Below the pieces are notes generated by a model, which was not told where the DNA came from, ran no database searches, and saw only the letters and a program-made list of their open reading frames with translations. DNA of 64,000 nt from Thalassovita mediterranea (GTDB lineage Bacteria; Pseudomonadota; Alphaproteobacteria; Caulobacterales; Hyphomonadaceae), in contig CP080408.1 of NCBI GenBank assembly GCA_019448215.1, positions 992,001 through 1,056,000 of the forward strand, read 5' to 3'. A program made the translations under genes and the position numbers. Below, piece by piece: positions 43,582-46,656 of the stretch. Within the stretch, counting starts at the first letter, position 1; the number at the start of each line of letters is the position of its first letter.

Positions 43582-43619
43582 ATCAGCCTTCCTGTGCCAA
43601 GAGGCCGCTGAAGAATTTA

Positions 43620-43640
43620 TTGATCATTCAGACGATTTCC
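43620..43640. promoter_or_regulatory. operator-like sequence upstream of the TetR gene
   Basis: The sequence TTGATCATTCAGACGATTTC is closely echoed at 44275-44296 (shared blocks TTGA, TCATTCA, GATT, CC). It ends 13 nt before the TetR start and lies between TetR and divergent gpsA. A weak inverted pair CTGAA/TTCAG flanks it. It is a candidate autoregulatory site. Confidence 0.45.
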
Positions 43641-43653
43641 GTATCTTCAGGCC

Positions 43654-44268
43654 ATGAGTGACAAATCCAAGACCCGTGAGCAGATCCTCGATGCGGCCAT
43701 GAACCGTATCAAACACTACGGCTATGGCAAAACAACCATGTCCGAAATCGCAAGCGATTGCGATATGTCGGCGGGAAATATCTATCGTTTCTTTGCGTCC
43801 AAGCTGGATATCGCCGAGGCAATGGCGCGCCAGTTTAACGCAGAGCTCTACCAGTCCTATTCAGAGATCGCGCGAAGCAACGGCCCGCCAGCTCAGCGCC
43901 TGCGTCAGGTCTTTCATTACAATCTGGACCAGACTTTCGATGCGATAGAGCGCGAAGCGAAAATCCTCGAAGTCGCAGAGGTGCTTGGTGAGGAACGCCC
44001 TCTCTTCATGAATGAAGGTCTGGCGCAGGAGCGCATCTACCTCTGCACAATTCTTGAAGACGGCGTCGAGCGCGGCGACTTCGCGCCAATTGCTGACTGC
44101 AACTACACCGCCGAAATGATCCAGTCGGCGCTGATGAAGTACCGGTTTCCGCAGCTTTTCTCCCGCCTCACCCTCCCGAAGCTCCGCCGTGAGCTGAATG
44201 GCGTCCTCGACATCATCATCGCGGGCCTCGCCAAAGGCATCGAAAAGACGCCGGAGACTGAACACTAA
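43654..44268 (+). CDS. TetR family transcriptional regulator
   Basis: The 204-aa product has an N-terminal TetR helix-turn-helix (about residues 5-50): REQILDAAMNRIKHYGYGKT, then TMSEIASDCDMSAGNIYRFF and ASKLDIAEAMA. The rest is a helical ligand domain with no recognised subfamily. It is divergent from gpsA. The next coding region is a 37-aa membrane peptide gene about 107 bp downstream, with its own promoter that overlaps a copy of the operator-like sequence found before tetR. This makes the peptide gene a likely regulon member. Confidence 0.9.
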   Translation: MSDKSKTREQILDAAMNRIKHYGYGKTTMSEIASDCDMSAGNIYRFFASKLDIAEAMARQFNAELYQSYSEIARSNGPPAQRLRQVFHYNLDQTFDAIEREAKILEVAEVLGEERPLFMNEGLAQERIYLCTILEDGVERGDFAPIADCNYTAEMIQSALMKYRFPQLFSRLTLPKLRRELNGVLDIIIAGLAKGIEKTPETEH

Positions 44269-44274
44269 ATAATT

Positions 44275-44296
44275 TTGAAATCATTCATTGATTGCC
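44275..44296. promoter_or_regulatory. second operator-like sequence overlapping the -35 of the small-peptide gene
   Basis: The blocks TTGAAATCATTCA and TTGATTGCC repeat the layout of 43620-43640 with two small gaps. Its right half overlaps the proposed -35 (44288-44294), where a bound repressor would block polymerase. Confidence 0.45.
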
Positions 44297-44316
44297 AGAT
44301 TGAACGGTGCTATATC
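44288..44316 (+). promoter_or_regulatory. promoter of the 37-aa peptide gene
   Basis: TTGATTG (44288-44294), a 14-nt spacer, then GCTATATC (44309-44316), which fits the Caulobacter -10 consensus GCTANAWC exactly; the -35 matches TTGACGS at five of seven positions. It predicts a transcript start near 44323 and a leader of about 50 nt. Confidence 0.65.
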
Positions 44317-44374
44317 CTTCTTACCGGAGCAGACAGGCTCGCCTGCCCGGCTCTTTTGAGAAGGACAAAAAACA

Positions 44375-44488
44375 ATGAGCGTTTCCTCCACTGAAACCCG
44401 TCAGGGTATCTTCGCACTCCTGGTCAGCCTCCCGATGGCCGCCAGCCTCTGCGCTTTCGTGATGCTCGGATCCGGGCTCCTGATCTAG
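44375..44488 (+). CDS. 37-aa hydrophobic membrane peptide
   Basis: The frame runs ATG to TAG and encodes MSVSSTETRQGIFALLVSLP, then a hydrophobic stretch ending MLGSGLLI. One transmembrane helix (about residues 11-36) is expected, with a short polar N-terminus. AAGGA lies about 9 nt upstream. A promoter matching the local housekeeping consensus precedes it and a strong terminator follows 22 nt after the stop, so it forms a complete small transcription unit. I recognise no family. It is not a leader peptide of glmS, which is on the other strand. Confidence 0.65.
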   Translation: MSVSSTETRQGIFALLVSLPMAASLCAFVMLGSGLLI

Positions 44489-44509: not shown

Positions 44510-44545
44510 AAAGCCCCGCCAGCGCGACGCTGACGGGGCTTTTTC
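44510..44545. terminator. bidirectional rho-independent terminator
   Basis: AAAGCCCCG (44510-44518) pairs with CGGGGCTTT (44534-44542), with CAGCG/CGCTG pairing further in and TTTT beyond. It sits between the small-peptide gene and the convergent glmS stop, and the A/T flanks suit both directions. Confidence 0.85.
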
Positions 44546-44575: not shown

Positions 44576-46414
44576 CTATTCGACCGTGACGGACTTCGCG
44601 AGATTGCGCGGCTGGTCCACATCAGTGCCCTTCTCCACCGCCACATGATAGGCGAGCATCTGGATCGGAAGCGAATAGAGGATCGGCGCGATGAACGGGT
44701 CGCAGTCCGGCAGTTCGATCCGGCTTGCAGGGGTTTCACCCGCTGCTCTCACACCGGCTGCATCAGAAATCAGGACAACCTCGCCCCGGCGGGCCGCGAC
44801 TTCCTGCAAATTGGACAGCGACTTGTCGAACAGCCCATCGAAAGGCGCGACGAACACCACCGGCGTTTCTTCATCGATGAGCGCAATCGGACCGTGCTTC
44901 AGCTCGCCAGATGCGTAGCCTTCCGCGTGAATGTAGCTGACCTCTTTCAGCTTCAGCGCGCCCTCAAGCGCAATCGGGTAGTGCACGCCCCGGCCGAGAT
45001 AGATGACGTCACTTGCCTTCGCGATGTCGCGCGAGAGCTCTGCAATCCGCTCATCAAGCTGCAGCGTTGTCGACATTAGGCGTGGCAGTTCAGTCAGTGC
45101 GCGCACAAGCCGGATTTCAGCGTCCCGCGAAATCTGCTCACGCGCCCGGCCAGCGGAAATGGCTACTGCTGCTAGCGCTGCCAGCTGCGCGGTGAACGCC
45201 TTGGTGGACGCAACACCGATTTCCGGGCCGGCCAGTGTTGGCAGGACAAGATCAGCTTCGCGCGCAATTGACGACGTCGGCACATTAACAACCGCAGCCG
45301 TCTTCAGTCCCTGCTCCTTACAATAGCGGAGCGCCGCCAGCGTATCGGCGGTTTCGCCTGACTGGCTGACAAAGAGTGCAAGGCCGCCCTCCTTGGCGAG
45401 CGCAGGTTCGCGGTAGCGAAATTCCGACGCGATATCGGTTTTGACCGGCAGGCCGGCACATTGCTCGAACCAGTATTCGGCCACACGCGTCGCAAAGTGG
45501 GCCGTGCCACAGGCGATCATGTAGAGATACTTCACCTCGGACCAGTCGATCGCGTCGGCGCCCTCACCGGGCAGCTCAACGGTCTGGCGAAGGATATTCG
45601 TATAGGCACCAATCGTGCGGCCCGTTGAGTCTGGCTGCTCGAAGATTTCCTTCTGCATGAAGTGGCGATAATTGCCCTTCTCTGCTGCAGCGCCCGCGCC
45701 CTGCACAATGCTGACCGCGCGCTCGACCGGCTTGTCCTTGCGATCAAATATCTCATAGCTCTCATGGCTGAGGACGCAGACATCGCCTTCTTCGAGATAG
45801 ATGACGCGATTGGTGAAAGGCGCGACCGCGAGGGCGTCAGAGCCAAGGAACATCTCACCTTCGCCCACGCCAATCGCCAGCGGAGAACCTTTGCGTGCAC
45901 CGACCAGAAGGTCGGATCGGCCTTCAAAGAGAAGCGCAAGCGCGAATGCCCCATGCAGGCGCGCCACCCCGGCTTTTACGGCCTCAACCTCACCCATCCC
46001 CTTCTTCAGGTTGGACGCGATGAGGTGGGCAATCGTTTCGGTATCTGTCTCTGTCTCAAAATGGTGGCCTTCGGCTTCCAGTTCCTGGCGCAGCTCCCGG
46101 AAATTCTCGATAATCCCATTGTGAACCACGGCTACCGGCCCGGACACGTGCGGGTGCGCATTGCCCACAGTCGGTGAACCGTGCGTCGCCCAGCGGGTAT
46201 GACCTATGCCCTGATTGCCGGTCAGCGGATCGGCGGCAATCGCCTCGTCCAGGTTGATAAGCTTGCCCGGCGCGCGGCGTCTGTCCATCTTGCCGCTGGC
46301 GTCGATGGTCGCAATGCCGGCGCTGTCATAACCGCGATACTCAAGACGCTTCAGCGCATCAACGAGCCGCGGCGCTGCAGGCTCGTTGCCGAGGATACCG
46401 ATAATACCGCACAT
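44576..46414 (-). CDS. glmS: glutamine-fructose-6-phosphate aminotransferase
   Basis: GlmS makes glucosamine-6-phosphate from fructose-6-phosphate and glutamine, the entry step for peptidoglycan and LPS amino sugars. From the ATG at 46414 (GGAGG upstream) the product is 612 aa and begins MCGIIGILG, leaving Cys1 as the glutaminase nucleophile after Met removal. GHTRWATHGSPTVGNAHPH and VVHNGIIENFRELR complete that domain. Two SIS domains follow (SQSGETADTLAALRYCKEQG, HAEGYASGELKHGPIALID), ending with KSVTVE. It is divergent from glmM, so the two consecutive pathway enzymes share an intergenic region. Confidence 0.97.
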   Translation of the reverse strand: MCGIIGILGNEPAAPRLVDALKRLEYRGYDSAGIATIDASGKMDRRRAPGKLINLDEAIAADPLTGNQGIGHTRWATHGSPTVGNAHPHVSGPVAVVHNGIIENFRELRQELEAEGHHFETETDTETIAHLIASNLKKGMGEVEAVKAGVARLHGAFALALLFEGRSDLLVGARKGSPLAIGVGEGEMFLGSDALAVAPFTNRVIYLEEGDVCVLSHESYEIFDRKDKPVERAVSIVQGAGAAAEKGNYRHFMQKEIFEQPDSTGRTIGAYTNILRQTVELPGEGADAIDWSEVKYLYMIACGTAHFATRVAEYWFEQCAGLPVKTDIASEFRYREPALAKEGGLALFVSQSGETADTLAALRYCKEQGLKTAAVVNVPTSSIAREADLVLPTLAGPEIGVASTKAFTAQLAALAAVAISAGRAREQISRDAEIRLVRALTELPRLMSTTLQLDERIAELSRDIAKASDVIYLGRGVHYPIALEGALKLKEVSYIHAEGYASGELKHGPIALIDEETPVVFVAPFDGLFDKSLSNLQEVAARRGEVVLISDAAGVRAAGETPASRIELPDCDPFIAPILYSLPIQMLAYHVAVEKGTDVDQPRNLAKSVTVE

Positions 46415-46656
46415 ATATGTGTCGCCTCCGTGAGTGCTCAGCCTTCCTCTAGAAAACCGGAAGGCCACAGGTCATTGCAAAAAGCGTGACGTTTTATGTC
46501 AGCCCTCGTTCCCCAGAAGGGTGCAGGCTTCACCTGATAAGGTGATTACCCGCTTTGGTTAAAGGTATTGTTGCAACTTGAGGCTATAGTGGCTTTCACG
46601 GACTTGGCACGTTCAGTGAATGTATGCGAAGTCGCTTGGAAGACGGGAGGCCGCCA

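Follow-up and report, generated by a model that had tools for sequence, protein, structure and literature searches.

Organization of the tetR-peptide locus

The window, i.e., the whole 64,000-nucleotide stretch of DNA analysed here, spans G000:C1:992001-1056000 of a genome of 3.22 Mb in a single contig. The gene order at the locus is gpsA (minus strand), tetR (plus), a gene for a small hydrophobic peptide (plus) and glmS (minus). The coding and terminating features are as follows:

43654-44268, plus strand: tetR, encoding a TetR/AcrR-family regulator of 204 aa
44360-44365, plus strand: Shine-Dalgarno sequence GAAGGA, 9 nt 5' of the ATG of the peptide gene and invariant in the aligned genus sample
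44375-44488, plus strand: peptide ORF of 37 codons, hydrophobic, with one predicted transmembrane (TM) helix, MSVSSTETRQGIFALLVSLPMAASLCAFVMLGSGLLI
44510-44542, not assigned to one strand: bidirectional intrinsic terminator with a 15-bp hairpin, common to the peptide gene and glmS
44576-46468, minus strand: glmS, convergent to the peptide gene

The initial annotation had placed tetR, a 37-aa ORF, its Shine-Dalgarno sequence and a -10 element within GCTATATC at this locus, and the sequence bears out all of these positions. It had also credited the peptide gene with a strong terminator; the hairpin is present but, as listed above, serves both genes. The terminator scan listed it on the minus strand, and the plus strand reads GGGGCTTTTT. 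The closest named orthologues of TetR (91-100% identity) all come from Henriciella (Hyphomonadaceae), and the window was assigned to Henriciella on this basis. In other genera, e.g., Hyphomonas, Terricaulis and Ponticaulis, the unit adjoins gpsA or a convergent tsaD, these genes having been named by eye from their translations. No TetR homologue was found on plasmids. One genome, G016, contains two tetR-peptide pairs (L018 and L041), each with its own operators.

TetR carries the Pfam TetR_N domain (PF00440; 5e-13, 49 bits versus a cut-off of 24) and TetR_C_27 (1e-8), and its AlphaFold2 model (pLDDT 91) consists of helices only. Foldseek searches with this model returned TetR-family regulators, including FadR, QacR and KstR2, the best matches sharing 15-24% identity with TetR; by sequence or by Foldseek E-value, FadR and KstR2 rank among the nearest, and by TM-score QacR does (0.77-0.78). 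All three are regulators that respond to hydrophobic ligands. With these three proteins TetR has in common the TetR_N DNA-binding domain, the all-helical fold and a palindromic operator at its own promoter and at its targets. It differs from them in its identity of less than 25% and in what it would control, the genes for the 37-aa peptide and for a secreted protein rather than fatty-acid, sterol or pump genes. The NCBIfam equivalog models for FadR (35 bits versus a cut-off of 200) and KstR (32 bits versus 280) did not recognize TetR, and its assignment to a known equivalog (BetI, AcrR, FadR or others) was rejected, the scores lying far under every NCBIfam cut-off. A conserved thiol switch was also dropped from consideration, Cys36 being replaced in family f3. 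As identity to FadR, KstR2 and QacR is 24% or less, their resemblance provides only a lead to the ligand, which may be hydrophobic and acyl-CoA- or drug-like.

The predicted small membrane peptide

Among the 80 named loci with a TetR orthologue, 78 have an operator site downstream of tetR, and each of these sites precedes a short ORF that encodes a single hydrophobic segment; at the two exceptions (L247 and L263) the contigs end there. The initial annotation had made its proposal depend on conservation of the peptide beside tetR in relatives, and the proposal withstands this comparison (78/80 loci). Short hydrophobic ORFs arise by chance, the same test being met by 9% of shuffled sequences, and the ORF could accordingly be fortuitous and lie within a leader that TetR controls for some other purpose. 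Its presence at 78/78 loci and the purifying selection described below argue against this and, because the terminator and the convergent gene come next in the window, there is no downstream gene for such a leader to serve; the probability of a chance ORF is practically negligible.

The peptides are about 34-45 aa long across Henriciella and related bacteria, the automatic start being too early at a few loci (e.g., L206, L214 and L217), where an upstream ATG was preferred. The hydropathy of the peptide is 2.3 over 17 residues. Its dN/dS (Nei-Gojobori) is 0-0.33 in the closest pairs and increases in more distant ones owing to saturation of synonymous sites, which also inflates the pooled value of 0.55; variability by codon position is 0.30/0.17/0.38. 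These comparisons indicate that the peptide is under purifying selection as a protein. Outside the genus its sequence is barely conserved, with ORF length and hydrophobicity remaining constant. A profile search recovered one copy of the peptide per genus genome, adjacent to tetR, and two copies in G016, where there are two tetR genes. Five TetR-bearing genomes of a second family, f3, also encode the peptide 3' of tetR, at a distance of 1.3 kb in G054, and G058, which is devoid of TetR, is also devoid of the peptide.

No family match to the peptide was found in Pfam or NCBIfam. With fewer than 50 aa, one predicted TM segment and selection as a protein, it resembles the small membrane proteins and would be inserted in the membrane through its single hydrophobic segment. 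YohP, AcrZ and MgtS, small stress-linked bacterial membrane proteins, are likewise shorter than 50 aa with essentially one TM segment (PMC7549839, PMC12719787, PMC11539335); unlike them, the peptide described here has no sequence family match and is in fixed pairing with a dedicated TetR regulator. A literature search found no paper on the tetR-peptide pair. The size and the single TM segment would also suit a hydrophobic toxin of the type I toxin-antitoxin kind, silenced by TetR. However, genomes normally have a single chromosomal copy of the gene, which is always adjacent to tetR and keeps a stable position next to gpsA or tsaD, and its loss coincides with that of tetR and of the secreted-protein gene considered in the next section; in addition, no antisense RNA family was matched in Rfam at E 0.1, a search that a new antisense RNA could escape. 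We regard a toxin as very improbable and retain the reading as a small membrane protein.

Predicted operator, promoters and regulon

Alignment of the orthologous loci yielded a 22-bp palindrome, TGAA-N3-T-N7-T-N2-TTCA, as the candidate operator. Its copies at the locus and the promoters that they accompany are:

43609-43630, no strand: predicted operator O1, TGAAGAATTTATTGATCATTCA, over the tetR promoter
43620-43647, plus strand: putative tetR promoter, with -35 TTGATC (43620-43625), a 16-nt spacer and -10 TATCTT (43642-43647)
44266-44287, no strand: predicted operator O2, TAAATAATTTTGAAATCATTCA, which begins inside the tetR stop codon
44288-44316, plus strand: putative peptide-gene promoter, with -35 TTGATT (44288-44293), a 17-nt spacer and -10 TATATC (44311-44316)

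The repeated blocks that the initial annotation had described before tetR and over the -35 of the peptide promoter are part of this shared element, but their GATT-CC portion was rejected as an operator component, since it is not conserved across orthologous loci, and the true unit is the palindrome, which starts further upstream. Half of the palindrome had thereby been overlooked. The palindrome covers the -35 at tetR and directly precedes it at the peptide promoter. Transcription of tetR would start at or just 5' of the ATG, giving a short leader or none. The promoter assignments rest on conservation, because a simple sigma-70 scan of the locus listed no promoter: the consensus of the tetR promoter is conserved in 78 loci and TTGA stands immediately 3' of the O2 palindrome in 73/78 loci, with a consensus -10 of CTATAT.

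O1 was found upstream of tetR in 78 of the 80 named loci, and the downstream site in as many. In another family, in which TetR shares 33-51% identity, four loci (L032, L033, L035 and L039) keep the palindrome at the tetR and peptide promoters alike, its TGAA..TTCA ends being exact. In the 3.2-Mb genome, the pattern TGAANNATNNNNNNATNNTTCA is matched exactly at a single place, the tetR promoter. When the pattern matches of this genome were scored with a position weight matrix (PWM), the best sites were those of the peptide gene (34.9 bits), tetR (30.0 bits) and a gene of the CC_3452 family (27.8 bits), followed by a site at 17.2 bits; as the matrix was trained on the tetR and peptide sites of relatives, including the own locus, the first two scores are not independent, whereas the CC_3452 score is. 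The next best site was not retained as a fourth target, as it overlaps a start codon and is probably fortuitous. A tighter pattern has matches in 27/29 genus genomes, versus one match in total for the reversed control, and the two genomes without a match (G023 and G027) are the two small genomes lacking TetR. These data support the pairing, proposed in the initial annotation, of a TetR regulator with a real small membrane-protein gene under a common operator.

The third strong site (G000:C1:264672) is located 95 nt 5' of the ATG of a gene encoding a 100-aa protein with a signal-peptide-like start, which belongs to the CC_3452 family (NF047636; 76 bits versus a cut-off of 40). The palindrome contains the -35 of this gene's promoter, TTGACA. 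The site is carried by 21 of the 23 genus orthologues of the first sample, with scores of 23.9-30.9 bits and positions from -82 to -107; the other two are a truncated match (G013) and an orthologue with a weak site of 7.6 bits (G007). The site is also present in four further genus genomes (G024, G025, G026 and G028) and in seven TetR-bearing genomes of other genera, with weak scores in two of these (10.8 and 12.0 bits). By contrast, no operator site was found at the CC_3452 orthologues of genomes without TetR, i.e., G043 and, in family f2, G037, G041 and G049. In Caulobacter, both iron limitation and a fur mutation raise CC_3452 2.5-fold (PMC3751524); the gene described here differs in carrying a TetR operator. 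At one locus (L271, genome G032), a strong operator is found 590 nt 5' of the CC_3452 match, followed by another ORF start with a GGTTTCCTCCC leader, an arrangement that perhaps corresponds to a tandem duplicate.

Three genomes (G023, G027 and G033) have neither TetR nor the CC_3452 protein, and the first two are also without operator and peptide. In G011 (87% complete, 590 contigs), TetR and the peptide are missing and operator sites are kept, most likely the result of an assembly gap. Because four genomes (G042, G044, G050 and G052) keep TetR and the peptide with no CC_3452 match, tetR and the peptide gene are the tighter pair. As judged from this distribution, the tetR, peptide and CC_3452 genes appear to be one conserved unit.

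In one lineage (G001, G003, G008, G011, G015 and G016) the site is also found 5' of two paralogous genes for iorA-type [2Fe-2S] subunits, one of which is followed by a gene for a Mo-cofactor-binding large subunit; the operator-bearing loci are L135-L142, L149, L151 and L152. The best reading is that iorA-type Mo-hydroxylase genes joined the regulon in this lineage. Such control was rejected for the own genome, in which the closest iorA copy (L164) scores -15 bits and has no site. Operator-like sites were observed 5' of genes for a flavodoxin-fold NAD(P)H reductase (L146 and L147), an epimerase-type dehydrogenase (L144 and L145) and an NmrA-like protein (L143), in one or two genomes each; by their upstream sequences, the flavodoxin-fold reductase and the NAD(P)-binding enzymes may be regulon members at single loci. 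The accessory redox and carbonyl enzymes suggest a response to reactive or lipophilic compounds. The CC_3452 target, the lineage-specific Mo-hydroxylase targets and the pattern of co-loss go beyond the initial annotation, whose interpretation is supported in part; its stress-induced membrane modulator and the omission of the gene by automated calling are conjectures.

At tetR and CC_3452 the -35 falls within the operator, and the iorA sites are spaced differently; these positions are consistent with occlusion, i.e., repression. At the peptide gene, activation is a live rival, because at most loci (73/78) the O2 palindrome runs straight into the -35, a constant spacing such as RNA polymerase contact would require, whereas in O1 and at CC_3452 the -35 is part of the site. 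TetR would then be dual, repressing its own gene and activating the peptide promoter from the site directly 5' of the -35. TetR-family regulators are, however, mostly repressors, and the iorA sites, at yet another distance from the gene, are a better fit to occlusion. We therefore consider a dual regulator unlikely and favour repression at all three promoters.

RNA-level features and proposed function

Two further features were noted in the transcript of the peptide gene:

44324-44353, plus strand: 5'-leader hairpin, bulged in this species, within the 44317-44359 leader
44382-44389, plus strand: TTTCCTCC, within the peptide ORF (codons 3-5)

The hairpin, supported solely by a simple home-made inverted-repeat search against mononucleotide shuffles, reaches p ≤0.03 in 12/25 genus loci (z -2.4 in the own species). 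Its stems are uninterrupted over 8-13 bp in 12/25, and several of these show compensated pairs. MAFFT/RNAalifold did not recover it, since the stems of the different loci do not line up, and Rfam at E 0.1 gave no relevant family, the lone sub-threshold match being on the terminator. The codons of Ser4-Ser5 of the peptide are TCC TCC in 27/27 genus loci, which are related sequences and not 27 independent events; TCC is used for 9/63 of the other serines of the genus peptides and for 63/242 in tetR. The eight-base motif TTTCCTCC shows no variation in an alignment of 14 rows, although L023 has GTGTCCTCC, and it is missing from most peptides outside the genus. CC_3452 mRNAs carry GGTTTCCTCCC immediately 5' of the ATG (e.g., L058:2557-2566). 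That the motif recurs in the peptide codons and before the CC_3452 start may point to post-transcriptional control of the two genes together. A role of GTTTCCTCC as a general start-codon signal was rejected, since only one of its 32 other genome copies (L278, ATGGTTTCCTCC) is plausibly at a start.

A leader hairpin in many species and a motif that is near-invariant at the nucleotide level within the genus might also mean that the transcript is mainly a regulatory RNA, with the ORF secondary. Yet dN/dS is well below 1, the codon positions vary unequally (see above), ORF length and hydrophobicity are constant where the RNA sequence has fully diverged, and Rfam holds no relevant family; we find this explanation quite improbable.

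With the peptide gene, the operator, its third target and their co-inheritance established computationally, we consider it likely that the palindrome at the tetR, peptide and CC_3452 promoters defines a small TetR regulon governed by repression and ligand-triggered release, with two envelope proteins as core output. A TetR dimer would bind the 22-bp palindrome at its own, the peptide-gene and the distant CC_3452 promoters, and would block all three without inducer; on binding a hydrophobic ligand, for which the fold suggests an acyl-CoA- or drug-like compound, TetR would leave the DNA. The core response would consist of a one-pass inner-membrane small protein and a periplasmic CC_3452 partner, and in one Henriciella lineage the iorA-type Mo-hydroxylase genes would likewise be under the palindrome. 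As to the function of the peptide, we infer that it and the CC_3452 protein may act jointly, a possibility that we place short of an even chance. A doubtful extension is that the two form an envelope device, composed of a membrane protein of drifting sequence and fixed size and position and of secreted CC_3452, whose mRNAs are tied by the UUUCCUCC element at the translation start. If true, UUUCCUCC would be read in both mRNAs by one RNA or protein, and the device would constitute a previously undescribed envelope response of Hyphomonadaceae.

In our assessment the system is of an ordinary kind, a TetR regulator with its own operators; its most constant output is an unrecorded small membrane protein, and the regulon is small and clear. 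For the study of small proteins, it illustrates that synteny and operator conservation find a gene that similarity alone loses beyond the genus. The CC_3452 family gains a regulatory link beyond the iron response of Caulobacter, and an unrecorded family of small proteins acquires a regulator with its operator, a secreted partner under common control and a taxonomic range, which makes its function directly testable.
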